64,000 nt of DNA, from positions 11,365,001-11,429,000 of the forward strand of contig NC_090785.1 of assembly GCF_040054535.1 (NCBI RefSeq), written 5' to 3'. The stretch comes from Antennarius striatus. Taxonomy: Eukaryota > Chordata > Actinopteri > Lophiiformes > Antennariidae. Position 1 is the first letter of the stretch. Every line of letters starts with the position of its first letter. Of this stretch, positions 22,909 through 51,463 are shown one piece after another. The translations under genes and the position numbers were made by a program. The notes below the pieces were generated by a model, which saw only the letters and a program-made list of their open reading frames with translations, was not told where the DNA came from and searched no databases.

Positions 22909-25269
22909 CTCCCCAGAAGTACCCCTCCTGTCAGGGAGCACCAGAGTGTTAGCGTTGCTTCCTGGTACAATAGTAGATCCAATACTCATTCTGGGTCCAA
23001 CTAACATGTAGCGTTTGTCTCCAGATCTGTACTGGATGCTGTGACACAGTGTCCCATCATAATTAGTCTCTTGGAGATATTTAGAAGTATAGTCTGTGCT
23101 GCTTTTTGAACACTGCATTGCAATCAGCACGATGATACTGATGACAAAAAGAAGTGAAACTGAGCCCAGAGTTATCATCAGATAAAGAGTCACATTATTC
23201 TCCTCCTCATCCTTTGCAGAACTTTTCACATCAGAAGCAGCAAAAGCCTCTTTGGGCTCCACAACTCTGACAATCACAGTAGCTGTTGCTGACAGGGAAA
23301 CGTTCCCATTGTCTTTCACCAGTATGACCAGTTTGTGCTCAGCCTCGTCTGTCTCTGTGAATGAGCGAAGGGTTCTGATCTGTCCTGTATAGCGGTCCAA
23401 ACCAAACAGACTGTGGTCTGTCACCTCCTGCAGTGAAAACAGCAACCAGCCGTTATATCCTATATCAGCGTCATAGGCTCTGACTTTAGTCACCAAGTGT
23501 CCTGCGTTCACATTGCGGGGAATCTCCTCCACACCTTCAGCAGAACCGTTGGAGCTGACTGGATACAGGATGACTGGAGCGTTGTCGTTCTGATCCAGAA
23601 TGAACACGTTCACTGTCACGTTGCTGCTCAGGGACGGAGTTCCACCATCTGTGGCCACAACTTGGAACTGGAACGTCTTCAGGGTCTCAAAGTCAAAACT
23701 TTTTAGAGCCAAAATTTCTCCACTGTCACTATTTATATTTAGAAATGATGCTAATTTGTTAACTTCACTTGCCTGTCGGAAAATCTGATATGAAATGAGA
23801 GCATTATCATTCTCATCACGATCAGAAGCTTTAACAGAAAACACAGAGACTCCTGGATCGTTCCCCTCAGTCACATAGAAAGTATAAGGACTCAGGGAAA
23901 ACTCTGGACTGTTGTCATTCACATCTGACACCACAACACTTATTGTCTTTTCAGATGATAATGGAGGCTGACCAGCATCTTTTGCAAGTATTGTCAGGTC
24001 ATATTGTGACTGTTTCTCTCTGTCCAGAGGAGATTTAGTGACTAATGAATACATTTTGTCTTCTAAGGATGGAGTTAACATAAAGGGAACATTCTCATCC
24101 ATCGAACAAATAACTTTTCCATTGAGACCAGAGTCCAGGTCATTTACACTGATGAGGGCAACTGTTGTTCCAGGTCTGGAATCTTCAGGAATGGAGCTTG
24201 AGAATGAGGTCACCTCAATCTCAGGTGCATTATCATTAATGTCAACTATTTTAATTATCACACTTTTCTCTGTTGTCAGAGGAACCGAGCCTTTATCTGA
24301 TGCTTCAATTTCAATTTCATATACATCTTTGTCCTCATAATCTATTGAACCTTTAACAACTATCAAACCTGATAATGGATTTACATCAAATAGATTTAAT
24401 ATGTTCTGATTCATACTGTTACTAAATGAATAGATTACTTCTCCATTCATTCCATCATCTAAATCAGTTGCATTCACTTGTATGACTGTTGTCCCAACTG
24501 GAGCATTTTCATTCAGCATAACAGAATAAACGTCCTCAGTAAAGACAGGTGCATTATCATTAACATCTAAAACATTTATTAGAATATTCATGTTACCAGA
24601 TTTAGGAGGTTTACCTCCATCCAGTGCGGTCAGCACTAAGGAGTGACTTCCTGCTGCTTCCCTGTCTAAAGACTTTTGAACAACCAATATTGGAATTTTA
24701 CCATCATTTCTTTTTTCCTTAACTTCCAAACGGAAATGATCATTCGGGCTCAATCTATATTTCTGCACAGAGAAAGAACCACTGTCTGGGTCCCGTGAAG
24801 GTTTCAGCTGAAATCGTGCTCCGGGTAGAACAGACTCGGAAATATCCAGCTTTTTTTCTTCTTCCGGGAACGATGGAGAGTGATCGTTAATATCCATCAC
24901 TTCAACTCCTACATAATGTACCTCCAGTGGATTTTCAAGCACCGTTTTCAGATTGATTAAACACGTACTGCTTTGCGCACACACCTCTTCTCTGTCAATC
25001 CTCCGACTCACGTAAAGGATGCCGTCGTTTTGGTTCACATGAAACAGCGGATCCGCAGAGGCAGAAACAATCCGATACTTCCTGGCCTTCAGGGTGTTTT
25101 TATCTATTCCAAGATCTTTTGCGATATTTCCAACAACAGTTCCTTCATTAACTTCCTCAGAGAGTGAATATCTGATTTGCGCAGAGACAACGCTCCACAA
25201 AAGAACCGCAACAACGCAGCCAAACAGGAATCCACGCGTCGCTCGTCTGTCGCGTTTTCTTTGTTCCAT
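22909..25269 (-). CDS. pcdh2g: E5: clustered protocadherin variable exon (expanded group)
   Basis: This encodes 787 residues from the ATG at 25267-25269. Both flanks match E11 (spacer A downstream, spacer B upstream), so E5 and E11 are copies of one duplicated block. Their coding cassettes disagree: E5 has EEEKKLDI and [10 protein letters not shown] in EC2, [11 protein letters not shown] with [10 protein letters not shown] in EC3, and [12 protein letters not shown] in EC5, which ally it to E9. EC1 shows SRRIDREEV, as in E10. The tail ends RRGTSGE before donor GTAAGA. The linkers and the CX5C are intact, and nothing suggests loss of function. Confidence 0.94.
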
Positions 25270-27054: not shown

Positions 27055-29415
27055 CTCCTCAGAAGTACCCCTCCTGTCAGGGAGCACCAGAGTGTTAGCG
27101 TTGCTTCCTGGTACAATAGTAGATCCAATACTCATTCTGGGTCCAACTAACATGTAGCGTTTGTCTCCAGATCTGTACTGGATGCTGTGACACAGTGTCC
27201 CATCATAATTAGTCTCTTGGAGATATTTAGAAGTATAGTCTGTGCTGCTTTTTGAACACTGCATTGCAATCAGCACGATGATACTGATGACAAAAAGAAG
27301 TGAAACTGAGCCCAGAGTTATCATCAGATAAAGAGTCACATTATTCTCCTCCTCATCCTTTGGAGAACTTTTCACATCAGAAGCAGCAAAAGCCTCTTTG
27401 GGCTCCACAACTCTGACAATCACAGTAGCTGTTGTTGACAGGGAAACGTTCCCATTGTCTTTCACCAGTATGACCAGTTTGTGCTCAGCCTCGTCTGTCT
27501 CTGTGAATGAGCGAAGGGTTCTGATCTGTCCTGTATAGCGGTCCAAACCAAACAGACTGTGGTCAGTCACCTCCTGCAGTGAAAACAGCAACCAGCCGTT
27601 ATATCCTATATCAGCGTCATAGGCTCTGACTTTAGTCACCAAGTGTCCTGCGTTCACATTGCGGGGAATCTCCTCCACACCTTCAGCAGAACCGTTGGAG
27701 CTGACTGGATACAGGATGACTGGAGCGTTGTCGTTCTGATCCAGAATGAACACGTTCACTGTCACGTTGCTGCTCAGGGACGGAGTTCCACCATCTGTGG
27801 CCACAACTTGGAACTGGAACGTCTTCAGGGTCTCAAAGTCAAAACTTTTTAGAGCCAAAATTTCTCCACTGTCACTATTTATATTTAGAAATGAAGTGAT
27901 TTTATTGTCTTTACTTCCATCTCGGAGGATGTGATATGAAATGAGAGCATTATCATTCTCATCACGATCAGAAGCTTTGACAGAAAACACAGAGACTCCT
28001 GGATCGTTCCCCTCAGTCACATAGAAAGTATAAGGACTCAGTGAAAACTCTGGACTGTTGTCATTCACATCTGACACCACAACACTTATTGTCTTTTCAG
28101 ATGACAATGGAGGCTGACCAGCATCTTTTGCAAGTATTGTCAGGTCATATTGTGACTGTTTCTCTCTGTCCAGAAGAGATTTAGTGACTAATGAATACAT
28201 TTTATCCTTTGTGGATGGAGTTAACATAAAGGGAACATTCTCATCCATAGAACAAATAACTTTTCCATTGAGACCAGAGTCCAGGTCATTTACACTGATG
28301 AGGGCAACTGTTGTTCCAGGTCTGGAATCTTCAGGAATGGAGCTTGAGAATGAGGTCACTTCAATCTCAGGTGCATTATCATTAATGTCAACTATTTTAA
28401 TTATCACACTTTTCTCTGTTGAAAGAGGAACCGAGCCTTTATTTGATGCTTCAATTTCAATTTCATATATATCTTTTTCCTCATAATCTATTGTACCTTT
28501 AACAACTATCACACCTGATAATGGATTTATATCAAATTGATTTAATATGTTTTGATTCATACTGTTACTAAATGAATAGATTACTTCTGCGTTTGAACCA
28601 TCATCTAAATCAGTTGCATTCACTTGTATGACTGTTGTCCCTACTGGAACATTTTCATTTAGCATAACAGAATAAACGTCCTCAGTAAAGACAGGTGCGT
28701 TATCATTAACATCTAAAACATTTATTAGAATATTCATGTTACCAGATTTAGGAGGTTTACCTCCATCCAGTGCGGTCAGCACTAAGGAGTGACTTCCTGC
28801 TGCTTCCCTATCTAAAGATTTTTGAACAACTAATATCGGTATTTTACCATCATTTCTTGTATCCTTAACTTCCAAACGGAAGTGATGATTTGGGCTCAGT
28901 TTATATTTCTGCACAGAGCAAGAACCACTGTCTGGGTCCCGTGAAGGTTTCAGCTGAATTCGTGCTCCGGGTAGAACAGATTCGGAAATATCCAGCTTTT
29001 TTTCTTCTTCCGGGAACACTGGAGAATGATCATTGATATCCATCACCTCTACTTCTACATAATGTACCTCCAGTGGATTTTCAAGCACCGTTTTCAGGTT
29101 GATTAAACACGTACTGCTTTGCGCACACACCTCTTCTCTGTCAATCTTCCGACTCACGTAAAGGATGCCGTCGTTTTGGTTCACATGAAACAGCGGATCC
29201 GCAGAGGCAGAAACAATCCGATACTTCCTGGCCTTCAGGGTGTTTTTATCTAGTCCAAGATCTTTTGCGATATTTCCAACAACAGTTCCTTCATTAACTT
29301 CCTCAGAGAGTGAATATCTGATTTCTGCTGAGGCAACGCTCCACAAAAGAACCGCAACAACGAAGCCGACCAAAAAGCTGCGCGATGTTCGTTGTATATT
29401 TCTCCTTTGTTCCAT
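27055..29415 (-). CDS. pcdh2g: E6: clustered protocadherin variable exon (expanded group)
   Basis: This encodes 787 residues. The signal peptide [18 protein letters not shown] occurs only here and in E9, matching their shared C-type promoter. EC2 has EEEKKLDI and DTRNDGKIP, and EC3 has [11 protein letters not shown] and [12 protein letters not shown]2 reads [17 protein letters not shown], where others have SGSFSVQ and PNDHF, so it gains an extra, probably unpaired, cysteine. Other private changes are KSLLDREKQ in EC4 and SPKDEEENN before the membrane. It ends RRGTSEE at donor GTAAGG. The sequence after the donor matches that after E8, E12 and E13, so E6 has a B-type 3' flank. Confidence 0.94.
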
Positions 29416-29660
29416 GGTTCAGCCGTAATTAATTAGTACTCCATACACAAAAATAGAGCAAATTATACAGTAACGGAATCCAGCATTATCCGGAATATTA
29501 ATGTACAATATTTTGCTACATAGTCAACCTCGTCAAACAAAGCATTCACAAAGCCAGCCGCGTACAAAATATGGCTGTGCGGATACCGATCGAGGATGAT
29601 GTCGAGAGGTGGAACGAAAATGCAGTGACGACAAAATCGTATGCTACTGACTTCTAAGTT

Positions 29661-29678
29661 ACACTGACACCATGCGAC
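29661..29678 (-). promoter_or_regulatory. CSE/CTCF-like promoter element of E6
   Basis: acactgacaccatgcgac lies about 246 bp upstream of the ATG. The box agaggtggaacgaaa is at 29605-29619. The whole promoter is almost identical to that of E9. Confidence 0.82.
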
Positions 29679-30275
29679 AAAACATATCGCTGTTGAAAAC
29701 TGTGTGGTTTTGTTGTATGTTTGATGGAAGGTACTTTATTTCGCAGCTAAATTCACTAATTTATTCTGCACAGAGGGAGAGTGATTTCGAGATGGAATCA
29801 TCGATTAGAAATATATATTCTTCCCTTTAATAACCTTCTAACTGAAAGCTTTTCAAGATATGTGATCATTAAGATTTGCCAATATTTTATATTTACCATT
29901 GTGGAGTCACATATATTATTGATGCGTCCTAGGTTTGGCATGCACTCACATTTTAGAAAAACATTTGAAAAAAAAAGAAAGAAAACAAAACACAACACAA
30001 CAAAACCCACAAACATGTATTTCCACTGACTTCTAAAATCCTTATCATTATTATTTAAGTATTATAAAAAGTGACAGCAAGTCAACAGTCATCCAATTTA
30101 AATCTCAGCAAACCTGTTCAAACTGCCACTTCTCACCAATTCATCAACAGCAAAACATTTAGATTTTGTTGAGCGTAAGGTTAAATCCATCTATGTAAAA
30201 CGCAGAGACTACAGATTCAACACAAGTTATACACAAATATGAACACAGACGAATAAAATAAATTATGGCCCAAAC

Positions 30276-31422: not shown

Positions 31423-31747
31423 GCCCACACATATGGCAAATCTGTGGATTAATACATATAACCACCCATCCAAAGACCTAAAAATACATTTACAATAGCT
31501 GCTGTTAGCATGCAACTAGAAGGAAAATAATTACTTTACAAAATTGCTTCCCAAACTTCAGACACAGAATATTGTAACAAGTCTAAAATATGATACGGTG
31601 CTCCGTCCACATGAGTTACTCTTTTAAAATCATACATCTGAATTAATTTCTTGATATTGTTTTTACTCATAAAAAAATAATGTTATAGCTTAATACAGTC
31701 ATTGCATCTTTTGGAATCAAAACAACAGGTGTTTGGTTCATTCTTAC

Positions 31748-34105
31748 CTCTTCAGTACCCCTCCTGTCAGGGAGCACCAGAGTGTTAGTGTTGCTTCCTG
31801 GTACAATAGTAGATCCAATACTCATTCTGGGTCCGACTAACATGTAGCGTTTGTCTCCAGATCTGTACTGGATGCTGTGACACAGTGTCCCATCATAATT
31901 AGTCTCTTGGAGATATTTAGAAGTATAGTCTGTGCTGCTTTTTGAACACTGCATTGCAATCAGCACGATGATACTGATGACAAAAAGAAGTGAAACTGAG
32001 CCCAGAGTTATCATCAGATAAAGAGTCACATTATTCTCCTCCTCATCCTTTGCAGAACTTTTCACATCAGAAGCAGCAAAAGCCTCTTTGGGCTCCACAA
32101 CTCTGACAATCACAGTAGCTGTTGCTGACAGGGAAACGTTCCCATTGTCTTTCACCAGTATGACCAGTTTGTGCTCAGCCTCGTCTGTCTCTGTGAATGA
32201 GCGAAGGGTTCTGATCTGTCCTGTATAGCGGTCCAAACCAAACAGACTGTGGTCAGTCACCTCCTGCAGTGAAAACAGCAACCAGCCGTTATATCCTATA
32301 TCAGCGTCATAGGCTCTGACTTTAGTCACCAAGTGTCCTGCGTTCACATTGCGGGGAATCTCCTCCACACCTTCAGCAGAACCGTTGGAGCTGACTGGAT
32401 ACAGGATGACTGGAGCGTTGTCGTTCTGATCCAGAATGAACACGTTCACTGTCACGTTGCTGCTCAGGGACGGAGTTCCACCATCTGTGGCCACAACTTG
32501 GAACTGGAACGTCTTCAGGGTCTCAAAGTCAAAACTTTTTAGAGCCAAAATGTCTCCATTTTCACTATTTATATTTAAAAATGAAGTGATTTTATTGTCT
32601 TTGCTTCCATCTCTGAGGATGTGATATGAAATGAGAGCATTATCATTCTCATCACGATCAGAAGCTTTGACAGAAAACACAGAGACTCCTGGATCGTTCC
32701 CCTCAGTCACATAGAAAGTATAAGGACTCAGGGAAAACTCTGGACTGTTGTCATTCACATCTGACACCACAACACTTATTGTCTTTTCAGATGATAATGG
32801 AGGCTGACCAGCATCTTTTGCAGATACTGTCAGGTCATATTGTGACTGTTTCTCTCTGTCAAGAGGAGATTTAGTGACTAATGAATACATTTTATCCTTT
32901 GTGGATGGAGTTAACATAAAGGGAACATTCTCATCCATAGAACAAATAACTTTTCCATTGAGACCAGAGTCCAGGTCATTTACACTGATGAGGGCAACTG
33001 TTGTTCCAGGTCTGGAATCTTCAGGAATTGAGCTTGAGAATGAGGTCACTTCAATCTCAGGTGCATTATCATTAATGTCAACTATTTTAATGATCACACT
33101 TTTCTCTGTTGTCAGAGGAACCGGGCCTTTATCTGATGCTTCAATTTCAACTACATATCGGTCTTTCTCCTCATAATCTATTGAACCTTTAACGGTCACT
33201 TGTCCTGTGAATGGATTTACATCAAATAGCTTTAATACGTTTTGGTTCATATTGTTACTAAATGAATAGATTACGTCTCCGTTCAGTCCATCATCTAAAT
33301 CAGTTGCATTCACGTGTATGACTGTTGTCCCTACTGGAACATTCTCATTTAGCATAACAGAATAAACTTCTTCAGTAAAGACAGGTGCGTTATCATTAAC
33401 ATCTAAAACATTTATTAGAATATCCATGTTACCAGATTTAGGAGGTTTACCTCCATCCAGTGCGGTCAGCACTAAGGAGTGACTTCCTGCTGATTCCCTG
33501 TCTAAAGACTTTTGAACAACCAAAATGGGTATTCTGTCACCGTCCCCTCTGTCCATAACTTCCAAACGGAAATGATCATTCGGGCTTAATCCATATTTCT
33601 GCACAGAGAAAGAACCACTGTCTGGGTCCCGTGAAGGTTTCAGCTGAAATCGTGCTCCGGGTAGAACAGATTCGGAAATATCCAGCCTTTTCTCGTCTTC
33701 TGGGAATTTGGGCGGATGATCGTTTATATCCATCACCTCTACTTCTACATAATGTACCTCCAGTGGATTTTCAAGCACCGTTTTCAGGTTGATTAAACAC
33801 GTACTGCTTTGCGCACACACCTCTTCTCTGTCAATCTTCCGACTCACGTAAAGGATGCCGTCGTTTTGATTCACATGAAACAGCGGATCCGCAGAGGCAG
33901 AAACAATCCGATACTTCCTGGCCTTCAGGGTGTTTTTATCAATTCCAAGATCTTTTGCGATATTCCCAACAACAGTTCCTTCATTAACTTCCTCAGAGAG
34001 TGAATATCTGATTTGCGCAGAGACAACGCTCCACAAAAGAACCGCAACAACGCAGCCAAACAGGAATCCACGCGTCGCTCGTCTGTCGCGTTTTCTTTGT
34101 TCCAT
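31748..34105 (-). CDS. pcdh2g: E7: clustered protocadherin variable exon (expanded group)
   Basis: This encodes 786 residues: signal peptide 1-30, EC1 31-129 with C97/C103, EC2 130-239, EC3 240-348, EC4 349-453, EC5 454-565, EC6 566-680 and membrane helix about 694-719. EC2 carries [13 protein letters not shown] and DRGDGDRIP, cassettes it shares with E11, and contains RGD at 186-188. EC3 has [11 protein letters not shown] and [12 protein letters not shown]4 has the LTVSAKDAG form shared with E8, E10 and E11. Private changes are KYGLSPND and PGSNTNTLV. It ends RRGTEE, one residue shorter than most, as in E10. The promoter is B-type but the 3' flank is C-type, as in E10. Confidence 0.94.
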
Positions 34106-36508
34106 GGTCACACCCGATACCACCAGTTATCAGTCACAAAATATTACTCGAGTAATACGACCACAATCAAATACTCCACGTAGAAAAATGTTAATCATCC
34201 TTGTCAAACCTTAGTTATCATTTAAATATTTCTCACGTCAGCAGCAAAATCAAAAGCGTCTGACCGAACATCGCACCGAGAATCTCTGCGGAGGAGGATC
34301 CAAAGCAGTTCTACATCAACGACGTGCTGGATTTTCTAATTACACTGACACCATGCGATGTACATTATGTCTGCAGAACATACATTTTCAGGCTAGCATT
34401 AACTCATTGTAATGTGTCTGCGTTTAGGGTTTACTAATCTCAAACAGTACCTGAGTGAGTGGAAACATTACAAAATAAAAACTACTAATATTAAAGAGCA
34501 TTATGTTGAGTTGTGTAAATTCTTTAATGATTTGTATGATTTAAGAATATGGATCAAACATATATTTGCACTATGGTTTGAGATATATTTTAAGATGGTA
34601 ACATTTTCAGCACCATGGACAGTGATCTGTAACAACCGTCAATCATCTTTTGCTAGTTTCTAATTCAGTCAAAAAATAATAATCACAGGCCAATAAAATG
34701 AGACTTAAACTAAATGTACTATGTCACAATTCATTGTATTTCTTATATTTTATTACGAAGACTATGTCTTAAATTCATGTTGTCAGAGCAAATTCGTGTA
34801 CATAAATCAGCGGGTACTTTTTGGTTAAGAAATGAGCCACCATAATTTTATCCAAACACCCATGATTGTGCGAGGCTAACAACAGTAAATAGAATTCAAG
34901 TATAAAGGTGAAAAGCTGATGGAAAAATAATGTAAAAACATGAAAATTGAAAATTAAATGAATGGAATGGATGAATGGATTTTTCTTATACTGAGTGTTC
35001 TTGTTAGCGTGCGTTTTCGCGTCTTTGACGCACATTTTTTGACAGTGACGCCCGACGATCAGACAACGTGCGTCCCTGGGACGCAAGCTTTAACTATACA
35101 AAAAAAAAATATCGATGCTACCTTTTTCTGCTATATAATATTGGGGGGAAATGCACTTCCATTCAACAAAGATATTCACTATTTATCCATTTCTCCACTT
35201 AAATTTCGAGCCCGGATATGTTTCATCTTGCGCGAGTTTCTCGTCACGACACTCACCTGTGGGATTAGATTTTATTTCAATTGACCAAACGGCAAAACAA
35301 CGTCAACTCGTTTTACATGCTGCAGTGATAGAGCGAGGAGTAGTTTTACACTATCACCATGCTTCCGAAAAAGATGCAAAAGTTGGAGAAAAGCCAAATG
35401 ACAATGGGCGCTTCCTTGAATAAAAAAAAACAAAATAACAATCAAAAGTTAATAAAGAAAACAAAATATTGACAAATTTCTCCACACACAAATTACAAAA
35501 AATATGTATGTGGAGAAGGCTCTTTCAACTTTGTGCAGTGTCCACAGGAGAACATATCAATTAAAGAAAAAGAAAACTATTGAACGAAACACAAAAAGGG
35601 AAAACCTTCCACACTTTTTCATTTCTGAAACTTTTTTTAAAAGAATGACTACCCGGCTTTAACATTTCGATAAAAAAAATTATATATAATTTTACCCTAT
35701 ATTCCACTTAAACAGTTATGAGGTTATTATTAACAAAGTCATTAAAATTAAGTGTTTTATTCTTTTAATGTAGTATTGGAAAAACTCAATATGGCTTATA
35801 CTGTATATTCTGTTATTACTTTTGGGATACATAAACGTCATGTTGGGATGCACAATTTTTTCTTGAAGCGCAGCACAGGGATACATGTGGCGCCAGACTT
35901 AGGAGAATCTGGACCGGCTCAAGTGATGCACAGGCTAAAAGCACCGTGAATCGGTGGTGGTGCACTGGCTGTGGATCAATAACGGAGCCCACAGATTAAC
36001 GTCTTCACAAGCCAGTGCCGTTTTATTAATGACTCGCGCCAGGTAAAGATTGCGAAGACGCCGCTCCCCTCGATCCACAAGAGCGTGCGAGCGCCACCCA
36101 CTGATCTGGCGCTGCAAGTGCTACCCAGTAACATCCCAGTCTGCTAACGCAACTCTAAATGACGTCTCAAAAAATAAAAAAAGTACAAAGGGGTACCTAT
36201 TAACTATTAAAACTGGTTTTCAACCAATTACATACTACTTTTTTGAGGTAAAATGAACTCTGCTAACAACAGAAGATTGATTTGTCAGAACAACTTTACA
36301 TTCCAGAGATTTTATAATCCCGAAGAATGACACTAGGAAAAACATTACTACTTCACATTACATATTGGATTGTAATTTACACCTCCAGATGAGAAAAGCA
36401 AACCAGGTGAAACAATTTGCAAAATATCTTGCTTTGGAATGGAATGGAGACACAGGACTATCAGTGTGAGAAAAAACAATTGAGGGTTACAAAATAATCA
36501 CTCCTTAC
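34106..36508. other. Spacer between E7 and E8, type B copy 2
   Basis: This is the longest B spacer. Relative to copy 1 it carries two extra blocks, about 35014-35523 and about 35885-36225. Neither is recognised as a known element. The remaining sequence follows copy 1. Confidence 0.65.
34342..34359 (-). promoter_or_regulatory. CSE/CTCF-like promoter element of E7
   Basis: A perfect acactgacaccatgcgat lies about 237 bp upstream of the ATG. The second box ggaggaggatccaaa is at 34290-34304. Confidence 0.82.
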
Positions 36509-38869
36509 CTCCTCAGAAGTACCCCTCCTGTCAGGGAGCACCAGAGTGTTAGCGTTGCTTCCTGGTACAATAGTAGATCCAATACTCATTCTGGGTCCAA
36601 CTAACATGTAGCGTTTGTCTCCAGATCTGTACTGAATGCTGTGACACAGTGTCCCATCATAATTAGTCTCTTGGAGATATTTAGAAGTATAGTCTGTGCT
36701 GCTTTTTGAACACTGCATTGCAATCAGCACGATGATACTGATGACAAAAAGAAGTGAAACTGAGCCCAGAGTTATCATCAGATAAAGAGTCACATTATTC
36801 TCCTCCTCATCCTTTGCAGAACTTTTCACATCAGAAGCAGCAAAAGCCTCTTTGGGCTCCACAACTCTGACAATCACAGTAGCTGTTGCTGACAGGGAAA
36901 CGTTCCCATTGTCTTTCACCAGTATGACCAGTTTGTGCTCAGCCTCGTCTGTCTCTGTGAATGAGCGAAGGCTTCTGATCTGTCCTGTATAGCGGTCCAA
37001 ACCAAACAGACTGTGGTCAGTCACCTCCTGCAGTGAAAACAGCAACCAGCCGTTATATCCTATATCAGCGTCATAGGCTCTGACTTTAGTCACCAAGTGT
37101 CCTGCGTTCACATTGCGGGGAATCTCCTCCACACCTTCAGCAGAACCGTTGGAGCTGACTGGATACAGGATGACTGGAGCGTTGTCGTTCTGATCCAGAA
37201 TGAACACGTTCACTGTCACGTTGCTGCTCAGGGACGGAGTTCCAACATCTGTGGCCACAACTTGGAACTTGAACGTCTTCAGGGTCTCAAAGTCAAAACT
37301 TTTTAGAGCCAAAATGTCTCCATTTTCACTATTTATATTTAGAAATGAAGTGATTTTATTGTCTTTGCTTCCATCTCTGAGGATGTGATATGAAATGAGA
37401 GCATTATCATTCTCATCACGATCAGAAGCTTTGACAGAAAACACAGAGACTCCTGGATCGTTCCCCTCAGTCACATAGAAAGTATAAGGACTCAGTGAAA
37501 ACTCTGGACTGTTGTCATTCACATCTGACACCACAACACTTATTGTCTTTTCAGATGATAATGGAGGCTGACCAGCATCTTTTGCAGATACTGTCAGGTC
37601 ATATTGTGACTGTTTCTCTCTGTCCAGAGGAGATTTAGTGACTAATGAATACATTTTATCCTTTGTGGATGGAGTTAACATAAAGGGAACATTCTCATCC
37701 ATAGAACAAATAACTTTTCCATTGAGACCAGAGTCCAGGTCATTTACACTGATGAGGGCAACTGTTGTTCCAGGTCTGGAATCTTCAGGAATGGAGCTTG
37801 AGAATGAGGTCACTTCAATCTCAGGTGCATTATCATTAATGTCAACTATTTTAATTATCACACTTTTCTCTGTTGTCAGAGGAAGTAGACTTTTATCTGA
37901 TGCTTCAATTTCAATTTGGTATATATCTTTTTCCTCATAATCAATTGAACCTTTAACAACTATCGCACCTGATAATGGATTTATATTGAATTGATTTAAT
38001 ATGTTTTGATTCATACTGTTACTCAGTGAATAGATTACTTCTCCATTCATTCCATCATCTAAATCAGTTGCATTCACTTGTATGACTGTTGTCCCTACTG
38101 GAACATTTTCATTCAGCATAACAGAATAAACGTCTTCAGTAAAGACAGGTGCGTTATCATTAACATCTAAAACATTTATTAGAATATTCATGTTACCAGA
38201 TTTAGGAGGTTTACCTCCATCCAGTGCGGTCAGCACTAAGGAGTGACTTCCTGCTGCTTCCCTGTCTAAAGACTTTTGAACAACCAATATTGGAATTTTA
38301 CCATCATTTATTTTATCCTTAAATTCCAAACGAAAATGATCATTCGGGCTTAATCTATATTTCTGCACAGAGAAAGAACCACTGTCTGGGTCCCGTGAAG
38401 GTTTCAGCTGAAATCGTGCTCCGGGTAGAACAGACTCGGAAATATCCAGCTTTTTTTCTTCTTCCGGGAAAATTGGAGAATGATCGTTAATATCCATCAC
38501 CTCTACTTCTACATAATGTACCTCCAGTGGATTTTCAAGCACCGTTTTCAGGTTGATTAAACACGTACTGCTTTGCGCACACACCTCTTCTCTGTCAATC
38601 TTCCGACTCACGTAAAGGATGCCGTCGTTTTGGTTCACATGAAACAGCGGATCCGCAGAGGCAGAAACAATCCGATACTTCCTGGCCTTCAGGGTGTTTT
38701 TATCAATTCCAAGATCTTTTGCGATATTTCCAACAACAGTTCCTTCATTAACTTCCTCAGAGAGTGAATATCTGATTTGCGCAGAGACAACGCTCCACAA
38801 AAGAACCGCAACAACGCAGCCAAACAGGAATCCACGCGTCGCTCGTTGATAACATCTATTTTGTTCCAT
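36509..38869 (-). CDS. pcdh2g: E8: clustered protocadherin variable exon (expanded group)
   Basis: This encodes 787 residues. The signal peptide [13 protein letters not shown] is a private variant of the E4/E10 form. EC2 has [13 protein letters not shown] and [11 protein letters not shown], and EC3 has [21 protein letters not shown] and the private DKSLLPL. EC5 has two changes in the otherwise invariant tract: [15 protein letters not shown] in place of [17 protein letters not shown]6 has IRSLRSF for IRTLRSF. These private changes suggest it has gone longer without conversion than its neighbours. It ends RRGTSEE at donor GTAAGG, with a B-type 3' flank and a D-type promoter. Confidence 0.93.
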
Positions 38870-39530: not shown

Positions 39531-40037
39531 TTTAATGTTGTGGGGCTTTACGCTGCTTAAAAGAGGTGAATCAAATGCATCATTGATTTGAATTATACTG
39601 TAGTTTGACTTGAATCACTGTTGTGCGATGTAGAGAGATGAACTTGAGTATTAAAGAACCACTTTAAGTTCAGTGAATACATCTGAATGGAATTATTTTT
39701 TTTAAATATTTGCTGACGTATAATAATGAGCCCAAAATAATATTTTTTTGTGTTTTCTCAAATATTAGTTTAACAAGGTACTACATTAATGTCAAAGATG
39801 CCAATCTTCATTAACTCTTCGCTGCACCGACGCCTAATGTGAAAACGTGTAGCTGTCATAAAATTATAATATCACTGTATCTGTATTTTGGAATTGCTGT
39901 CTCTGTAGCTTGCAGAAATGTGTGTCAAGAATGACAATCCCCTTTTGTGAAATTTCAAATTCCGCCTTTTACGTTAAAACAGAAAACGATTTTCAGAAAC
40001 AAAAAAAATACAACACACTTGCTTAGAGGTGTCTTAC

Positions 40038-42401
40038 CTCCTCAGAAGTACCCCTCCTGTCAGGGAGCACCAGAGTGTTAGCGTTGCTTCCTGGTACAAT
40101 AGTAGATCCAATACTCATTCTGGGTCCAACTAACATGTAGCGTTTGTCTCCAGATCTGTACTGGATGCTGTGACACAGTGTCCCATCATAGTTAGTCTCT
40201 TGGAGATATTTAGAAGTATAGTCTGTGCTGCTTTTTGAACACTGCATTGCAATCAGCACGATGATACTGATGACAAAAAGAAGTGAAACTGAGCCCAGAG
40301 TTATCATCAGATAAAGAGTCACATTATTCTCCTCCTCATCATCCTTTGCAGAACTTTTCACATCAGAAGCAGCAAAAGCCTCTTTGGGCTCCACAACTCT
40401 GACAATCACAGTAGCTGTTGCTGACAGGGAAACGTTCCCATTGTCTTTCACCAGTATGACCAGTTTGTGCTCAGCCTCGTCTGTCTCTGTGAATGAGCGA
40501 AGGGTTCTGATCTGTCCTGTATAGCGGTCCAAACCAAACAGACTGTGGTCAGTCACCTCCTGCAGTGAAAACAGCAACCAGCCGTTATATCCTATATCAG
40601 CGTCATAGGCTCTGACTTTAGTCACCAAGTGTCCTGCGTTCACATTGCGGGGAATCTCCTCCACACCTTCAGCAGAACCGTTGGAGCTGACTGGATACAG
40701 GATGACTGGAGCGTTGTCGTTCTGATCCAGAATGAACACGTTCACTGTCACGTTGCTGCTCAGGGACGGAGTTCCACCATCTGTGGCCACAACTTGGAAC
40801 TGGAACGTCTTCAGGGTCTCAAAGTCAAAACTTTTTAGAGCCAAAATTTCTCCACTTTCACTATTTATATTTAGAAATGATGCTAATTTATTAACTTCAC
40901 TTGCCTGTCTGAAAATCTGATATGAAATGAGAGCATTATCATTCTCATCACGATCAGAAGCTTTGACAGAAAACACAGAGACTCCTGGATCGTTCCCCTC
41001 AGTCACATAGAAAGTATAAGGACTCAGTGAAAACTCTGGACTGTTGTCATTCACATCTGACACCACAACACTTATTGTCTTTTCAGATGATAATGGAGGC
41101 TGACCAGCATCTTTTGCAAATATTGTCAGGTCATATTGTGACTGTTTCTCTCTGTCCAGTCGAGATTTAGTGACTAATGAATACATTTTATCCTTTGTGG
41201 ATGGAGTTAACATAAAGGGAACATTCTCATCCATAGCACAAATAACTTTTCCATTGAGACCAGAGTCCAGGTCATTTACACTGATGAGGGCAACTGTTGT
41301 TCCAGGTCTGGAATCTTCAGGAATGGAGCTTGAGAATGAGGTCACTTCAATCTCAGGTGCATTATCATTAATGTCGACTATTTTAATTATCACACTTTTC
41401 TCAGTTGTCAGAGGAACTGAGCCTTTATCTGATGCTTCAATTTCAATTTCATATATATCTTTGTCCTCATAATCTATTGAACCTTTAACAACTATCACCC
41501 CAGATAATGGATTTACGTCAAATATATTTAATATGTTTTGATTCATACTGTTACTAAATGAATAGATTACTTCTCCATTCAGTCCATCATCTAAATCAGT
41601 TGCATTCACTTGTATGGCTGTTGTCCCTACTGGAGCATTTTCATTCAGCGTAACAGAATAGGTGTCTTTAGTAAAGACAGGTGCGTTATCATTAACATCT
41701 AAAACATTTATTAGAATATTCATGTTACCAGATTTAGGAGGTTTACCTCCATCCAGTGCGGTCAGCACCAAGGAGTGACTTCCTGCTGATTCCCTGTCTA
41801 AAGACTTTTGAACAACCAATATTGGAATTTTACCATCATTTCTTTTTTCCTTAACTTCTAAACGAAAATGATCATTTGGGCTTAATCTATATTTCTGCAC
41901 AGAGAAAGAACCACTGTCTGGGTCCCGTGAAGGTTTCAGCTGAAATCGTGCTCCGGGTAGAACAGACTCGTAAATATCCAGCCTTTTGTCTTCTTCTGGG
42001 AATCTGGGCGGATGATCGTTAATATCCATCACCTCTACTTCTACATAATGTACCTCCAGTGGATTTTCAAGCACCGTTTTCAGATTGATTAAACACGTAC
42101 TGCTTTGCGCACACACCTCTTCTCTGTCAATCTTCCGACTCACGTAAAGGATGCCGTCGTTTTGGTTCACATGAAACAGCGGATCCGCAGAGGCAGAAAC
42201 AATCCGATACTTCCTGGCCTTCAGGGTGTTTTTATCAATTCCAAGATCTTTTGCGATATTTCCAACAACAGTTCCTTCATTAACTTCCTCAGAGAGTGAA
42301 TATCTGATTTCTGCCGAGGCAACGCTCCACAAAAGAACCGCAACAACGAAGCCGACCAAAAAGCTGCGCGATGTTCGTTGTATATTTCTCCTTTGTTCCA
42401 T
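40038..42401 (-). CDS. pcdh2g: E9: clustered protocadherin variable exon (expanded group)
   Basis: This encodes 788 residues and pairs with E6 by signal peptide ([13 protein letters not shown]) and promoter, but with E5 by coding cassettes: [10 protein letters not shown] in EC2 and [12 protein letters not shown] in EC5. EC2 begins [15 protein letters not shown], with a private S to Y change. EC3 has [20 protein letters not shown], a divergent strand within this group, then [13 protein letters not shown]4 reads ICAMDENV and LTIFAKDAG, both private. The pre-membrane stretch is DDEEENN, otherwise seen only in E1. It ends RRGTSEE at donor GTAAGA. Confidence 0.94.
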
Positions 42402-42664: not shown

Positions 42665-43276
42665 AAAACATATCGCTGTTGAAAACTGTGTGGTTTTGTT
42701 GTATGTCTGATGGAAGGTACTTTATTTCTCAGCTAAAATCACTAATAGACTTTATTCTTCAGAGAGGGAGAGTGATTTGGAGTTGGAGTCATCAATTAGA
42801 AATGCATTTTCTTTCCTTCAATAACATTCTAACTGAAAGTTTTTCAAAATATGTCACTATTAAGATTTGTCATTTTTGGGGGGATTTACATTTATGAATT
42901 CATATCTTATATTACCGATTTTATCTGATTCTGAGGTTTTGCATGCTCTAGCATTTTCGAAAAGCATTTACAAAAAAAAAAAAAGAAAAAAGAAAAGAAA
43001 AACAGAATGAAACCAAAGATATCCCCACTGACATCTGCAAACCTTATCATTATTATTTAAATATGATACAAAGTGAAAGCAAGTCAACAGTCATCCAACT
43101 TAAATCTCTGCAAACCTGTTCAAACTGCCACTTTTCAACAATTTAAAAAAAAAAAAAACATTTAGATTTTATAGAGCGTAAGGTTAAATCCATCTATGTA
43201 AAACCCAGCGACGGCAGATTCAACACAAGTTAAACAAATATGAACACAGACGAATAAAATAAATTATGCCCCAAAC

Positions 43277-44423
43277 AGCGTTTCCTCTAAGCTGCGCATT
43301 TTCACACCGCTCGCACATTCTCAGCGCACAAGAATATGTATGTAGCACACGAATTAAAATGCGATATAAACGTATAAAATAATACCTAATATTAAACCTA
43401 ATCTATTAATTTAGGCCAATCATATTGTTTTCTGTACCATTTTGCGTAATAACTCAGTGACAGGTGTCCGGCCAATGTCCAGCCAATACGGTGAGGCTCA
43501 CTTATGCTACCTAGCCAATCAGAGCATTGACGGTCCTACACGTGCTTCCTGCTATGCGCACCGTGCAGGTTAACAGGTTAGTGACTGGAAACGAACGGGC
43601 AGGTACACACCCACTCACCAAACCAAAGTAAAAAAGAAATGCGGTTCTTCTAACATGGGATGGCTGTCAGAGTTTATGCAAATAGAAGAACAAGCTGTGA
43701 AACTGGGTGAGATTTCTTTTCTTTTTGAGAAAGTTCAAACCAAGAAGCTGAAGAGGCCATCAACCTGGACAAAGTGTAGCACCACGTGAAATATAAGGTA
43801 CATTTTAAGTCGGATTTGTGAAAATTATAATGACAAAATTTCAGATTTCTTTTTTATTAACGGATATTAATCATTAAATGCCGTCACTACTAGACCATTT
43901 GTGGGTTGTATAAATGCTGATAAAAAGGAGTAATTAGATATTTCACAGACCAAGAGTTACAGGAATGTATTCTGTATCACAATCGGCACACGTGATTGCG
44001 CAAAATATGAATGTTATAATGTGAACAAACTGTGATGTCTCAAACGTGTATATGTGTCATTTCTTCCAGAACAGGACCCTAAGCCAGGCCACAACTGGCC
44101 CTCACCGACAAAAGCAGCTCTCTTCCCATGGCCACATCAGGACCTTCACATATGACAAACTACACATCTCATGAAGAATACGATTTTTGTCTTTTTCATT
44201 TCAAGTGGACCAAAGCACTTATATTAAAAGTAAATGAATGAAAATTGTTGGTGTAATATGAATCATTTAATAAGCCATCTTGCTATGATGCAAGGTTTTG
44301 AACAAGTGTGATACTGGTGTGTGGTCACAGCGTGCACATTTGATGTTGCTCACAGTGGTCCGTAGTGCGCTCAGGACGCTTGTGTGTATATGCCCAGACA
44401 CATGAAAAATTGGAGGGGACATT
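43277..44423. mobile_element. hAT-like DNA transposon remnant, copy in spacer C2
   Basis: This is the same element, at the same site, as 30276-31422, with the same flanks. It was therefore inserted before the spacer duplicated and is not a second transposition. The internal 44-codon frame (43655-43789) is still open, with two residue differences from the other copy. Confidence 0.5.
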
Positions 44424-44748
44424 GCCCATACATACGGCAATTCTGTGGATTAATACATGTTACCATCCATCCAAACACCTAAAAATACTTCTGCAATAGC
44501 TGTTGTTAGCATGCAACTAGAAGGAAAATAATTACTTTACAAAATTGCTTCCCAAACTTCAGACACAGAATATTGTAACAAGTTCAAAATGTGATACGGT
44601 GCTCCGTCCACATGAGTTAGTCTTTTAAAATCATACATCTGAATTAATTTCTTGATATCGTTTTTACTTATTAAAAACTAATGTTTTAGCTCAATGCAGT
44701 CATTGCATCTTTTGGACTCAAAACAATAAATGTTTGGTTGATTCTTAC

Positions 44749-47106
44749 CTCTTCAGTACCCCTCCTGTCAGGGAGCACCAGAGTGTTAGCGTTGCTTCCT
44801 GGTACAATAGTAGATCCAATACTCATTCTGGGTCCAACTAACATGTAGCGTTTGTCTCCAGATCTGTACTGGATGCTGTGACACAGTGTCCCATCATAAT
44901 TAGTCTCTTGGAGATATTTAGAAGTATAGTCTGTGGTGCTTTTTGAACACTGCATTGCAATCAGCACGATGATACTGATGACAAAAAGAAGTGAAACTGA
45001 GCCCAGAGTTATCATCAGATAAAGAGTCACATTATTCTCCTCCTCATCCTTTGCAGAACTTTTCACATCAGAAGCAGCAAAAGCCTCTTTGGGCTCCACA
45101 ACTCTGACCATCACAGTAGCTGTTGCTGACAGGGAAACGTTCCCATTGTCTTTCACCAGTATGACCAGTTTGTGCTCAGCCTCGTCTGTCTCTGTGAATG
45201 AGCGAAGGGTTCTGATCTGTCCTGTATAGCGGTCCAAACCAAACAGACTGTGGTCAGTCACCTCCTGCAGTGAAAACAGCAACCAGCCGTTATATCCTAT
45301 ATCAGCGTCAAAGGCTCTGACTTTAGTCACCAAGTGTCCTGCGTTCACATTGCGGGGAATCTCCTCCACACCTTCAGCAGAACCGTTGGAGCTGACTGGA
45401 TACAGGATGACTGGAGCGTTGTCGTTCTGATCCAGAATGAACACGTTCACTGTCACGTTGCTGCTCAGGGACGGAGTTCCACCATCTGTGGCCACAACTT
45501 GGAACTGGAACGTCTTCAGGGTCTCAAAGTCAAAACTTTTTAGAGCTAAAATTTCTCCAGTGTCACTATTTATATTTAGAAATGAAGTGATTTTATTTTC
45601 TTTGCTTCCATATCTGAGGATGTGATATGAAATGAGAGCATTATCATTCTCATCATGATCAGAAGCTTTGACAGAAAACACAGAGACTCCTGGATCGTTC
45701 CCCTCAGTCACATAGAAAGTATAAGGACTCAGTGAAAACTCTGGACTGTTGTCATTCACATCTGACACCACAACACTTATTGTCTTTTCAGATGATAATG
45801 GAGGCTGACCAGCATCTTTTGCAGATACTGTCAGGTCATATTGTGACTGTTTCTCTCTGTCCAGAGGAGATTTAGTGACTAATGAATACATTTTATCTTC
45901 TGAGGATGGAGTTAACATAAAGGGAACATTCTCATCCATAGAACAAATAACTTTTCCATTGAGACCAGAGTCCAGGTCATTTACACTGATGAGGGCAACT
46001 GTTGTTCCAGGTCTGGAATCTTCAGGAATGGAGCTTGAGAATGAGGTCACTTCAATCTCAGGTGCATTATCATTAATGTCAACTATTTTAATTATCACAC
46101 TTTTCTCTCTTGTCAGAGGAGCAAAGCCTTTATCTGATGCTTCAATTTCAATTTGATATATATCTTTTTCCTCATAATCAATCGAACCTTTAACAACTAT
46201 CACACCAGATAATGGATTTATATCAAATAGATTTAATATGTTCTGATTCATACTGTTACTAAATGAATAAATTACTTCTCCATTCATTCCATCATCTAAA
46301 TCAGTTGCATTCACTTGTATGACTGTTGTCCCTACTGGAACATTTTCATTCAGCATAACAGAATAAACGTCTTCAGTAAAGACAGGTGCGTTATCATTAA
46401 CATCTAAAACATTTATTAGAATATTCATGTTACCAGATTTAGGAGGTTTACCTCCATCCAGTGCGGTCAGCACTAAGGAGTGACTTCCTGCTGATTCCCT
46501 GTCTAAAGACTTTTGAACAACTAATATTGGAATTTTACCATCATTTACTTTATCCTTAACTTCCAAACGGAAGTGATCATTTGGGCTTAATCTATATTGC
46601 TGCACAGAGAAAGAACCACTGTCTGGGTCCCGTGAAGGTTTCAGCTGAAATCGTGCTCCGGGTAGAACAGTCTCGGAAATATCCATCCGTTTGTCTTCTT
46701 CCGGGAAAACTGGAGAATGATCGTTAATATCCATCAATTCAACTCCTACATAATGTACCTCCAGTGGATTTTCAAGCACCGTTTTAAGTTTGATTAAACA
46801 CGTACTGCTTTGCGCACACACCTCTTCTCTGTCAATCCTCCGACTCACGTAAAGGATGCCGTCGTTTTGGTTCACATGAAACAGCGGATCCGCAGAGGCA
46901 GAAACAATCCGATACTTCCTGGCCTTCAGGGTGTTTTTATCAATTCCAAGATCTTTTGCGATATTTCCAACAACAGTTCCTTCATTAACTTCCTCAGAGA
47001 GTGAATATCTGATTTCCGCAGAGACAACGCTCCACAAAAGAACCGCAACAACGCAGCCAAACAGGAATCCACGCGTCGCTCGCGGATAACATCTCCTTTG
47101 TTCCAT
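44749..47106 (-). CDS. pcdh2g: E10: clustered protocadherin variable exon (expanded group)
   Basis: This encodes 786 residues from the ATG at 47104-47106 ([13 protein letters not shown], as in E4). The open frame continues to a GTG at 47244, but that part is promoter sequence. EC1 has LIKLKTV (N to K) and [13 protein letters not shown]2 has [11 protein letters not shown] and DKVNDGKIP, and EC3 has [21 protein letters not shown] and DKGFAPL. EC5 has ASDHDEN and [10 protein letters not shown]6 has RAFDADIG and [15 protein letters not shown] and VMVRVV are shared with E12. The tail has [10 protein letters not shown], shared in part with E11. It ends RRGTEE, like E7, whose 3' flank it shares. Confidence 0.94.
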
Positions 47107-47370: not shown

Positions 47371-47474
47371 AAAATGCCTCGGTGATGAAGACCAGTTTGT
47401 TGTCAGAGTGTGTATCATAAATAGTACATTGTTGATACACAGAATCACTGAGGAAAACTAGTGGAGTAATTGTG

Positions 47475-48213: not shown

Positions 48214-49102
48214 TCAGACGGCCGAGGTGAGTGAAGTTCTCAATCAACAACCAACGATGTGCTTCACTTGAACCTCGCAAGATAAACCTTTCAAAATGTT
48301 CAAAAGAAAAAACAATTGTCAATATGTTGTAATTCATAGGATGGTTTTAAATATGAAGTCAGTGATATTATGTCATTATTGGGTTTAATGTATTTTTATA
48401 ATGTTAACCACATTTAAAATTTGCCCCAAACAGGTTCAGCACCACGGTCAGAGACAAACAGGGTTTTGAGAGCAATATCCACTCATTGGGCCATGTGCGT
48501 GATCAAGACAAAAGTGTGTCACCGATTCAAAAACCCCAAAAAGAAATCTTCATTAGCCTCAAAAGTCCTTTTTACACTATAACTCCCAGAAAATGTATTA
48601 TTTTCCCAAGTTCAACAACGACACATATATACAGTACATTCTGTACACGGGAAGATCATTGAAAATTTTCAGATTTAATGGCCTTAACAAACAGGAGGGC
48701 AATTCAGTATATAACAACTCATACAGGCTCGAAGACACACCCCAACCCCCTGCACGCACACACAGACACATGCAGAGGGCCAGTAGACATTCATGGAAAA
48801 AAAATATTGATGGAAGGTGTAGTGACTGGCAGCCATAGAGCAGCAACATAAGAGCAGAAGCAGCTTGTAAGGATCAGTGTGAGGAGTCTCAAGCGGTCAA
48901 CTGGCACAACTCAAGCTATCAGTGTGGTCTACAATGTACTTAAACTGATTAGCCTCAAGTCCACAAGCAAAGTCCTTAACTGAACTACTGCAGCCTCATC
49001 AAATATCAAAACTAACATTTTCTGACATAATTTTGTATATGAAAACATTTTTTCACATTCTACTGTGAAGAAAAGAGAAACAATGCTTTTGGTGTGTCTT
49101 AC

Positions 49103-51463
49103 CTCCTCAGAATTACACCTCCTGTCAGGGAGCACCAGAGTGTTAGCGTTGCTTCCTGGTACAATAGTAGATCCAATACTCATTCTAGGTCCAACTAACA
49201 TGTAGCGTTTGTCTCCAGATCTGTACTGGATGCTATGACACAGTGTCCCATCATAATTAGTCTCTTGGAGATATTTAGAAGTATACTCTGTGGTGCTTTT
49301 TGAACACTGCATTGCAATCAGCACGATGATACTGATGACAAAAAGAAGTGAAACTGAGCCCAGAGTTATCATCAGATAAAGAGTCACATTATTCTCCTCC
49401 TCATCCTTTGCAGAACTTTCCACATCAGAAGCAGCAAAAGCCTCTTTGGGCTCCACAACTCTGACAATCACAGTAGCTGTTGCTGACAGGGAAACGTTCC
49501 CATTGTCTTTCACCAGTATGACAACTTTGTGCTCAGCCTCGTCCGTCTCTGTGAATGAGCGAAGGGTTCTGATCTGTCCTGTATAGCGGTCCAAACCAAA
49601 CAGACTGTGGTCAGTCACCTCCTGCAGTGAAAACAGCAACCAGCCGTTATATCCTATATCAGCGTCATAGGCTCTGACTTTAGTCACCAAGTGTCCTGCG
49701 TTCACATTGCGGGGAATCTCCTCCACACCTTCAGCAGAACCGTTGGAGCTGACTGGATACAGGATGACTGGAGCGTTGTCGTTCTGATCCAGAATGAACA
49801 CGTTCACTGTCACGTTGCTGCTCAGGGACGGAGTTCCACCATCTGTGGCCACAACTTGGAACTGGAACGTCTTCAGGGTCTCAAAGTCAAAACTTTTTAG
49901 AGCCAAAATCTCTCCACTATCACTATTTATATTTAGAAATGAAGTGATTTTATTGTCTTTGCTTCCATCTCTGAGGATGTGATATGAAATGAGAGCATTA
50001 TCATTCTCATCGCGATCTGAAGCTTTGACAGAAAGCACAGAGACTCCTGGATCGTTCCCCTCAGTCACATAGAAAGTATAAGGACTCAGTGTAAACTCTG
50101 GACTGTTGTCATTCACATCTGACACCACAACACTTATTGTCTTTTCAGATGATAATGGAGGCTGACCAGCATCTTTTGCAGATACTGTCAGGTCATATTG
50201 TGACTGTTTCTCTCTGTCCAGAGGAGATTTAGTGACTAATGAATACATTTTATCCTTTGTGGATGGAGTTAGCATAAAGGGAACATTCTCATCCATCGAA
50301 CAAATAACTTTTCCATTGAGACCAGAGTCCAGGTCATTTACACTGATGAGGGCAACTGTTGTTCCAGGTCTGGAATCTTCAGGAATGGAGCTTGAGAATG
50401 AGGTCACTTCAATCTCAGGTGCATTATCATTAATGTCGACTATTTTAATTATCACACTTTTCTCTGTTGTCAGAGGAACCGAGCCTTTATCTGATGCTTC
50501 AATTTCAACGACATAAATATCTTTGTCCTCATAATCTATAGAGCCTTTGACAATTAGGTCGCCTGTTAATGTATGTAAATCAAAAAGTTTTAGCATGTTT
50601 TTATTCATACTGTTACTAAATGAATAGATTACTTCTCCATTCAGTCCATCATCTAAATCAGTTGCATTCACTTGTATGACTGTTGTCCCTACTGGAACAT
50701 TTTCATGCAGCATAACAGAATAAGCATCTTCAGTAAAGACAGGTGCGTTATCATTAACATCTAAAACATTTATTAGAATATTCATGTTACCAGATTTAGG
50801 AGGTTTACCTCCATCCAGTGCGGTCAGCACTAAGGAGTGACTTCCTGCTGCTTCCCTGTCTAAAGACTTTTGAACAACCAATATCGGAATTCTGTCACCG
50901 TCCCCTCTGTCCTTAACTTCCAAACGGAAATGATCGTTCGGACTTAATCTATATTGCTGCACAGAGAAAGAACCACTGTCTGGGTCCCGTGAAGGTTTCA
51001 GCTGAAATCGTGCTCCGGGTAGAACAGACTCGGAAATATCCAGCCTTTTCTCGTCTTCAGGGAATCCTGGCGGATGATCGTTAATATCCATCACCTCTAC
51101 TTCTACATAATGTACCTCCAGTGGATTTTCAAGCACCGTTTTCAGATTGATTAAACACGTACTGCTTTGCGCACACACCTCTTCTCTGTCAATCTTCCGA
51201 CTCACGTAAAGGATGCCGTCGTTTTGGTTCACATGAAACAGCGGATCCGCAGAGGCAGAAACAATCCGATACTTCCTGGCCTTCAGGGTGTTTTTATCTA
51301 TTCCAAGATCTTTTGCGATATTTCCAACAACAGTTCCTTCATTAACTTCCTCAGAGAGTGAATATCTGATTTGCGCAGAGACAACGCTCCACAAAAGAAC
51401 CGCAACAACGCAGCCGAACAGGAATCCACGCGTCGCTCGTCTGTCGCGTTTTCTTTGTTCCAT
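49103..51463 (-). CDS. pcdh2g: E11: clustered protocadherin variable exon (expanded group)
   Basis: This encodes 787 residues from the ATG at 51461-51463. EC2 carries [13 protein letters not shown] and DRGDGDRIP, like E7, including the RGD. EC3 has a private form, [11 protein letters not shown], with LHENVPVG and KNMLKLFDL. It has the most private changes in the normally uniform 3' part: [42 protein letters not shown] and a tail ending RRCNSEE. All keep the frame. It shares both flanks with E5. The CX5C and calcium linkers are intact, so it is presumably functional. Confidence 0.93.

Follow-up and report, generated by a model that had tools for sequence, protein, structure and literature searches.

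Evidence for short-tract mosaicism in the variable exons of a fish clustered-protocadherin array

Background

Regional gene conversion in the clustered protocadherins of fish was reportedly described by Noonan in 2004, a study known here through the papers that cite it. Such arrays encode identity tags of the nerve-cell surface. For fugu, the first three cadherin repeats (EC1-EC3) are said to form a region that 'does not undergo gene conversion', and trees were built on it; the same paper states that homogenisation reaches EC2 and EC3 only 'seldom' in zebrafish and mammals (PMC1852091). EC2 and EC3 are apparently exempt from conversion in Xenopus (PMC4978886), and EC1-3 are less prone to it in the anole (PMC2764143). 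Here we describe a window of 64,000 nt from Antennarius striatus (contig NC_090785.1, positions 11,365,001 to 11,429,000) that holds an array of this type with 14 variable exons, E1-E14. Ten of these, E3-E12, are mosaics of short tracts taken from a small common stock, and simple descent does not account for them. The DNA that appears to have been exchanged includes stretches that code for recognition domains.

The exon array

The open reading frame (ORF) list of the window contains 14 intact variable exons of 790-844 aa, all on the minus strand. They are tandem large single exons, each with a signal peptide (SP), six cadherin repeats (EC1-EC6), a transmembrane (TM) segment and a short tail, and a splice donor (GAG/GTAA) stands at the same place, just after LPDRR, in 14 of 14. 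The Pfam domains Cadherin, Cadherin_2 and Cadherin_C_2 were found in all three of the exons scanned (3 of the 14). The best PDB matches of E5, in an alignment that spans the ectodomain, are protocadherin-10 (Pcdh10) and Pcdh gamma B4; the array may be called gamma-like solely by this best clustered match. The window is best read as a fish clustered-protocadherin variable-exon array; its strong homogenisation, of a kind known in zebrafish and fugu, points to a teleost.

A 17-base element, TCGCWTGGTGTCAGTGT, has 13 matches with at most 3 mismatches, against 0.30 expected. All are on the minus strand, between 10828 and 59470, and they lie ~230-270 bases upstream of the start codons, one per exon for E1-E13; the region upstream of E14 has no match within 3 mismatches. 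This is taken only as a putative promoter element, presumably the one labelled CSE/CTCF. A six-frame search with a constant-exon motif (NTDW or TDWR) gave no match in the window, and the constant exons may lie beyond it.

The shuffled group compared below is E3-E12, ten exons of one array whose proteins are 92-96% identical to E5. Exons E5-E12 correspond to the ORFs from 22861 to 55160, and the interval 22909-51463 is bounded by the splice donor of E5 on one side and the start codon of E11 on the other.

Conflicting histories along the exons

Approximately unbiased (AU) tests were made on nine segments of E3-E12 for 13 clades (12 distinct splits), comparing a clade-constrained search with branch lengths stripped against the free tree. 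EC5 rejects the pairs E6+E9 (AU 6.6e-6) and E5+E11 (1.6e-6). The main EC3 split is rejected by EC2 (0.003), as is E5+E11 (0.012); EC3 in turn rejects the EC2 pair E7+E11 (0.009) and two flank pairs, E7+E10 and E4+E10. For the 5' flank, rejection extends to E5+E9 (2.8e-50), the 3'-flank pair E7+E10 (7e-60) and the main EC3 split, and for the 3' flank to the EC3 groups that were tested. Other pairs were not rejected: the EC3 pair E7+E12 by the 5' flank (0.65); E5+E9 by the 3' flank (0.47), EC2 (0.37) and EC3 (0.72); E6+E9 by EC2 (0.096) and EC3 (0.38); and E5+E11 by EC3 (0.093). The original prediction held that the coding patches of these exons conflict with one another and with their flanks, and the flank and EC trees of E3-E12 are indeed incongruent; the opposite outcome, congruence, was not obtained. 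A first cross-segment AU table was discarded, some of its user trees being far worse, which probably points to poorly optimised branch lengths.

The pairwise homoplasy index (PHI) rejects clonality. With 2000 permutations p is at its floor (0.0005) in the whole coding sequence (CDS), mature EC1-6, EC2+EC3, EC3 alone and SP+EC1, and it is 0.0015 in EC2 alone. GENECONV-like runs with a global p<0.05 occur in 11 of the 45 exon pairs over the whole CDS and in 7 of 45 within EC2-EC3. In a triplet test 163 of 810 comparisons reach the permutation floor of 1/3001 (0.27 expected), and in EC2-EC3 alone 83 of 720 have p<0.001 (0.72 expected); these counts are not independent because the triplets overlap.

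Association between sites is lost within ~100 bp. Over 119 biallelic informative sites, the squared correlation (r2) falls from 0.547 at <=3 bp to 0.262 at 20-40 bp, and by 80-150 bp, at 0.108, it has come down to the free-reassortment value of 0.111. The drop in r2 between 0-20 and 80-300 bp is 0.365, while the maximum among 100 nucleotide simulations without recombination (fitted tree, fitted rate classes) is 0.073, r2 in these being ~0.2 at every distance. Taken together, the conflicting segment histories, PHI, the decay of r2 and the triplets bear out the earlier proposal that short tracts move between exons, inside EC2 and EC3 too.

Homogenised regions and divergent islands

Mean pairwise synonymous divergence (dS) among E3-E12 is 0.21 in EC2, 0.22 in EC3, 0.07 in EC5, 0.056 in EC1, 0.045 in EC4 and 0.011 in EC6. 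EC1, EC4, EC6 and the tail are homogenised (dS 0.01-0.06). Homogenisation is near-complete from EC6 to the tail, and over EC6/TM/tail E1, E2, E13 and E14 also have a dS of 0.01-0.04 against E3-E12. E2 joins the E3-E12 sequence from about codon 350, the start of EC4, with dS >1 in EC1-EC3; in E1, E13 and E14 the likeness to the group begins only in EC5.

Counted over windows of 20 codons, synonymous differences per site rise to ~0.42 where the window begins at codon 135 or 185, and to 0.37 at 315. Between these islands they are low, 0.05 at codon 165 and 0.03-0.08 at 215-245, and homogenisation therefore extends into EC2 and EC3. The ratio of non-synonymous to synonymous divergence (dN/dS) is 0.23-0.45 across eight regions (EC2 0.29, EC3 0.37, none above 1); an apparent excess of amino-acid change was discarded on these values. 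The GC content at third codon positions (GC3) is 0.58 in the homogenised EC6, compared with 0.32 in EC2 and 0.22 in EC3. Raised GC3 of this kind was used as a signature of gene conversion in fugu (PMC1852091).

Block duplication with probable conversion and crossing-over

Block duplication, followed by short-tract interlocus gene conversion and some crossing-over inside the exons, probably accounts for E3-E12. The group would have arisen by duplication of exon-plus-spacer blocks, after which short tracts would have been exchanged between exons, by conversion as we infer the molecular process and in part by crossing-over. The islands in EC2, EC3 and EC5 presumably stay variable because selection acts against their being overwritten or because mismatch impedes it. 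Each exon would then combine a small number of alternative cassettes within one shared frame, with specificity islands recombining into new pairings. New combinations of patches do exist among the exons. The original prediction supposed that such exchange would raise diversity faster than point mutation; the same process also homogenises EC1, EC4, EC6 and the tail, and dN/dS in EC2 and EC3 is not above 1.

Unequal crossing-over and block duplication without conversion, which would join exon halves so that patches simply follow breakpoints, is improbable; the flanks are in its favour. One 5' flank type is found in E5, E7, E11 and E12, which are 87-91% alike (E5-E11 91%, E5-E7 89%, E5-E12 89%), with E3 more distant (64-67%). 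E4 and E10 are 90% alike, and E6 and E9 are 99% alike over ~320 bases; E8 is set apart, at 59-62% to these last four. The 3' flanks group otherwise – E6, E8 and E12 form one type (84-90%; E13 61-63%), and E7 and E10 a separate pair (92%) – so the 5' and 3' flanks disagree: the 5' flanks of E6/E9 are 99% identical but their 3' flanks 37%, and the 3' flanks of E7/E10 are 92% identical but their 5' flanks 47%. Unrelated flank types are mostly 35-50% identical, with so little homology that only clades within types can be read from the flank trees.

Crossing-over also finds support in the E7-E6 and E10-E9 spacers, which are one duplicated block (91.4% identity over 2357 bp). Spacers 29416-31666 and 42402-44685 are 86-99% identical over most of 2.2 kb; a weak stretch (67%) lies ~450-600 bases before the ATG, and the last 300 bases are 98-100% identical. 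E5 and E11 had been thought to share both spacers. They do have the same 5' type, which is common to E7 and E12 as well, and they share the 3' spacer only in part, in two pieces (68.8% over 513 bp and 84.9% over 370 bp), with 52% identity in the first 260 bp.

E5 and E9 can likewise be explained by one switch. The signal peptide and EC1 of E5 group with E11 and the remainder mostly with E9. Triplet p-values for E5 (backbone E11, donor E9) and E9 (backbone E6, donor E5) are at floor level with the signal-peptide end included, but 0.14 and 0.24 within codons 45-540, so that a single switch near codons 141-151, after EC1, suffices. The proposed match of E5 patches to E9 stands at the codon level; repeated cassette moves are not needed for it.

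What argues against crossing-over alone is the loss of association by 80-150 bp and the presence of interior tracts with the same backbone on both sides. In E12, with backbone E11, codons 304-332 are from an E7-like donor (EC2-EC3 p=4e-5, 3e-5 on recount; whole-CDS p 1e-5 and 1e-4 earlier, 2.3e-5 on recount with 400,000 permutations). In E9, with backbone E6, codons 509-521 are from an E13-like donor (p=2e-5; recount 1e-5, the floor). For E11 (backbone E5, donor E7, codons 144-205) the signal is weak, p=0.038 uncorrected in EC2-EC3, 0.049 over the whole CDS and 0.16 in codons 45-540. The predicted resemblance of E11 to E7 is real as shared motifs, and weakly indicated as transfer of an EC2 tract. 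Cassettes at odds with their flanks are present in the array as a whole, in EC3 and in EC5 (the E12 and E9 tracts), and less so in E5/E11, the leading example of the original prediction.

Shared patches at the codon level

Parallel selection, in which the same patches arose repeatedly by point mutation on a recognition surface that permits few solutions, is very unlikely. The patches do lie in EC2 and EC3, which are known recognition domains (PMC5001838), but they are near-identical in codons. E5 and E9 have 10 of 10 identical codons in the EC2b patch, and 15 of 15 residues and 13 of 15 codons in the EC5 motif (codons 508-522); 14 of the 15 codons of this motif in E9 are also found in E13, an exon divergent in EC1-EC4. 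The EC2 patches of E7 and E11 agree in 7 of 8 and 9 of 10 codons, with DEKRLDI and DRGDGDRIP in both exons, and E7 and E12 agree in 22 of 23 residues and 21 of 23 codons at EC3 codons 311-333. E5 and E11, in contrast, have the same codon at 2 of 10 places in EC2b and at 3 of 15 in the EC5 motif. Also against parallel selection are dN/dS below 1 and the short-range association with its distance decay, absent from the 100 nucleotide simulations with fitted rate classes, which are a first step only.

The motifs that the original prediction quoted are thus all present at the places given for them, matched in codons as well as residues. E12 carries the E7-like EC3 ascribed to it, as a clear 29-codon tract. 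E6 and E9, described as sharing promoter and signal peptide but differing in EC5, have the common promoter-side flank noted above and identical signal peptides of 30 residues, and their EC5 cassettes are different.

The EC5 of E6 is of the common cassette type, yet it has a CGA codon otherwise present only in E5, and it has the AGT of E5, E9 and E13 (found in E1 and E2 too) in place of the AGC of the seven remaining exons of E3-E12. These codons look as if a small piece of the other cassette was copied in.

Mis-stitching of near-identical exons during assembly is the least credible alternative: the identity of the E3-E12 proteins to E5, an almost invariant EC6 and a 2023 paper according to which the human protocadherin locus is so duplicative that short reads map poorly (PMC10463633) speak for it, and against it the window contains zero N, each of the 14 exons has an open frame and a GTAA donor, and the differences in EC2/EC3 are so closely spaced that many independent chimeras would presumably be needed.

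Several points weigh against the account by duplication, conversion and crossing-over. EC1 has little signal, with 3 of 13 clades rejected at 0.05, and GC3 is only 0.43 in EC1 and 0.42 in the tail though both are homogenised. The simulated sets have 66-105 informative sites, short of the 119 in the real alignment. The minimum recombination count (Rmin, 43 intervals) was dropped as evidence, as the no-recombination simulations give 25-49; that homoplasy alone yields such values favours parallel selection. Two named cases (E5/E11/E9 and E9/E6/E5) need just one switch, conversion and repeated crossing-over are not told apart by these data, and the assembled sequence may include chimeras.

A lead on coupling between contact domains

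From the sequence, we take the EC2b island to be at the expected position of the beta4-beta5 loop and the EC3 island to follow the Phe-X-Phe loop. The trans homodimer is antiparallel, with EC1 against EC4 and EC2 against EC3 (PMC5001838; see also PMC5106212). Isoform diversity lies at the EC2 beta4-beta5 loop, mainly in alpha, and at the EC3 Phe-X10-Phe loop in alpha and gamma; among beta and gamma isoforms the EC2 loop varies less (PMC5001838), a point against the beta4-beta5 reading of EC2b. EC5 participates in the cis dimer of mouse proteins (PMC8901172). Because EC2 binds EC3 of an identical partner, an unmatched swap of just one of the two would be expected to impair self-recognition. Arrays like E1-E14 would show which EC2/EC3 swaps are tolerated.

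Matched splits, defined as exact amino-acid splits at least 50 codons apart, were counted against a free-reassortment background, with columns mapped to domains only. They are enriched between domains that meet in the trans dimer: EC2xEC3 has 21 among 208 column pairs (null mean 3.5, p=0.005) and EC1xEC4 has 2 among 8 (p=0.02), with a combined p of 0.003. All other domain pairs together have 2 (null mean 5.1, p=0.88). For example, G at column 201 goes with T at column 314, or non-G with S, in 10 of 10 exons, and E/G at EC1 column 135 with K/E at EC4 column 417. Leaving out any one of the ten exons keeps the combined p within 0.0017-0.0067. Without E5, however, the remaining domain pairs show an excess too (p=0.042), and without E10 the p for EC1xEC4 becomes 0.053.

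Other measures give a mixed picture. Mean Cramer V2 has p=0.020 for EC2-EC3 and 0.079 for EC1-EC4; the lowest of the 28 domain pairs is SP-EC4 (p=0.007), for which there is no structural reason and which weighs against coupling. A Mantel test of EC2b-EC3a gives r=0.34 and p=0.040, uncorrected among 78 segment pairs, the others with p<0.05 being 5' flank-SP (0.001), EC3a-EC3b (0.006), EC2a-EC4 (0.013), EC5-3' flank (0.022) and EC1-EC3b (0.025). Nucleotide r2 for EC2b-EC3a is 0.14, slightly over free reassortment. The lead comes from one array of ten exons, the splits were seen before the test was refined (post hoc), columns within an island are not independent, and it is weakened by EC2 and EC3 also being neighbours in the chain.

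A tentative and rather doubtful explanation is that conversion shuffles cassettes almost freely along the exon and selection retains the combinations whose homodimer contact surfaces fit, so that splits survive mainly in EC2-EC3 and EC1-EC4. If so, a shuffled array would read out the contact domains of the dimer.

Features of the array

Table 1. Positions of exons, islands and cassettes in the window
Feature	Position	Strand	Basis
E5 variable exon, coding part to splice donor (SP, cadherin repeats, TM, short tail)	22909..25269	-	
E5 EC2a island (18 residues)	24832..24885	-	
E5 EC2b island (10 residues), codons identical to E9	24691..24720	-	
E5 EC3 island, LSG type	24313..24402	-	
E5 EC5 cassette (13 residues), also in E9, E13	23749..23787	-	
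E5 homogenised EC6/TM/tail, near-identical across 14 exons	22975..23634	-	alignment
E6 ORF; 5' flank and SP as E9, EC5 cassette of 13 residues	27007..29415	-	
E6 SP, protein identical to E9	29326..29415	-	
E6 EC5 cassette, common type	27895..27933	-	
E7 ORF	31667..34105	-	
E7 EC2a island (DEKRLDI)	33668..33721	-	
E7 EC2b island (10 residues)	33527..33556	-	
E7 EC3 island (TGQVTVKG type)	33149..33238	-	
E9 ORF	40023..42401	-	
E9 SP, protein identical to E6	42312..42401	-	
E9 EC2b island (10 residues)	41823..41852	-	
E9 EC5 cassette (13 residues); triplet tract codons 509-521, backbone E6, donor E13	40881..40919	-	
E11 ORF	48929..51463	-	
E11 EC2a island (DEKRLDI), as E7	51026..51079	-	
E11 EC2b island (10 residues), as E7	50885..50914	-	
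E12 ORF, beyond limits 22909-51463	52752..55160	-	
E12 EC3 island, E7-like; best-supported short EC2-EC3 tract among named cases (codons 304-332)	54204..54293	-	
E13 EC5 cassette (13 residues), exon divergent in EC1-EC4	57694..57732	-	
E3 ORF, shuffled-group member	15466..17868	-	
E4 ORF; 5' flank as E10 (90%), SP same	19315..21693	-	
E8 ORF	36461..38869	-	
E10 ORF; 3' flank as E7 (92%), 5' flank as E4 (90%)	44686..47106	-	
E2	12304..14676	-	

Comparison with known systems

The islands and new variant combinations have a likeness in the copepod GOT1 genes (PMC3728101), where islands of divergence persist in converted paralogs and new combinations of variants are formed. Unlike GOT1, the present locus is a homophilic recognition array with ten or more copies. 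Xenopus tropicalis and the anole have the same exon design, and dS was used there in the same way to detect conversion (PMC4978886, PMC2764143), but conversion in them is low.

Zebrafish and fugu arrays resemble this one in their tandem variable exons, a homogenised C-terminal part of the exon with raised GC3, and more divergent EC2/EC3. The ratio of high to low dS is ~20 here (EC1-EC6), compared with 79.5-1280 in zebrafish and 38.4 to >94.6 in fugu (PMC2764143), values obtained by different estimating methods. An earlier report of short-tract exchange inside EC2/EC3 was not found in the excerpted literature searched, which did not cover Noonan 2004 or Wu 2005. Gene conversion in fish protocadherins is already known, and the comparison suggests that the new element is short-tract exchange inside EC2-EC3. 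If conversion acts inside these two repeats, different histories are blended in fish protocadherin trees that rest on EC1-EC3, and recombination of cassettes joins mutation in the evolution of the recognition repertoire. Unlike the fugu account, in the array described here EC1 is homogenised too and short tracts appear to have been exchanged within EC2 and EC3.

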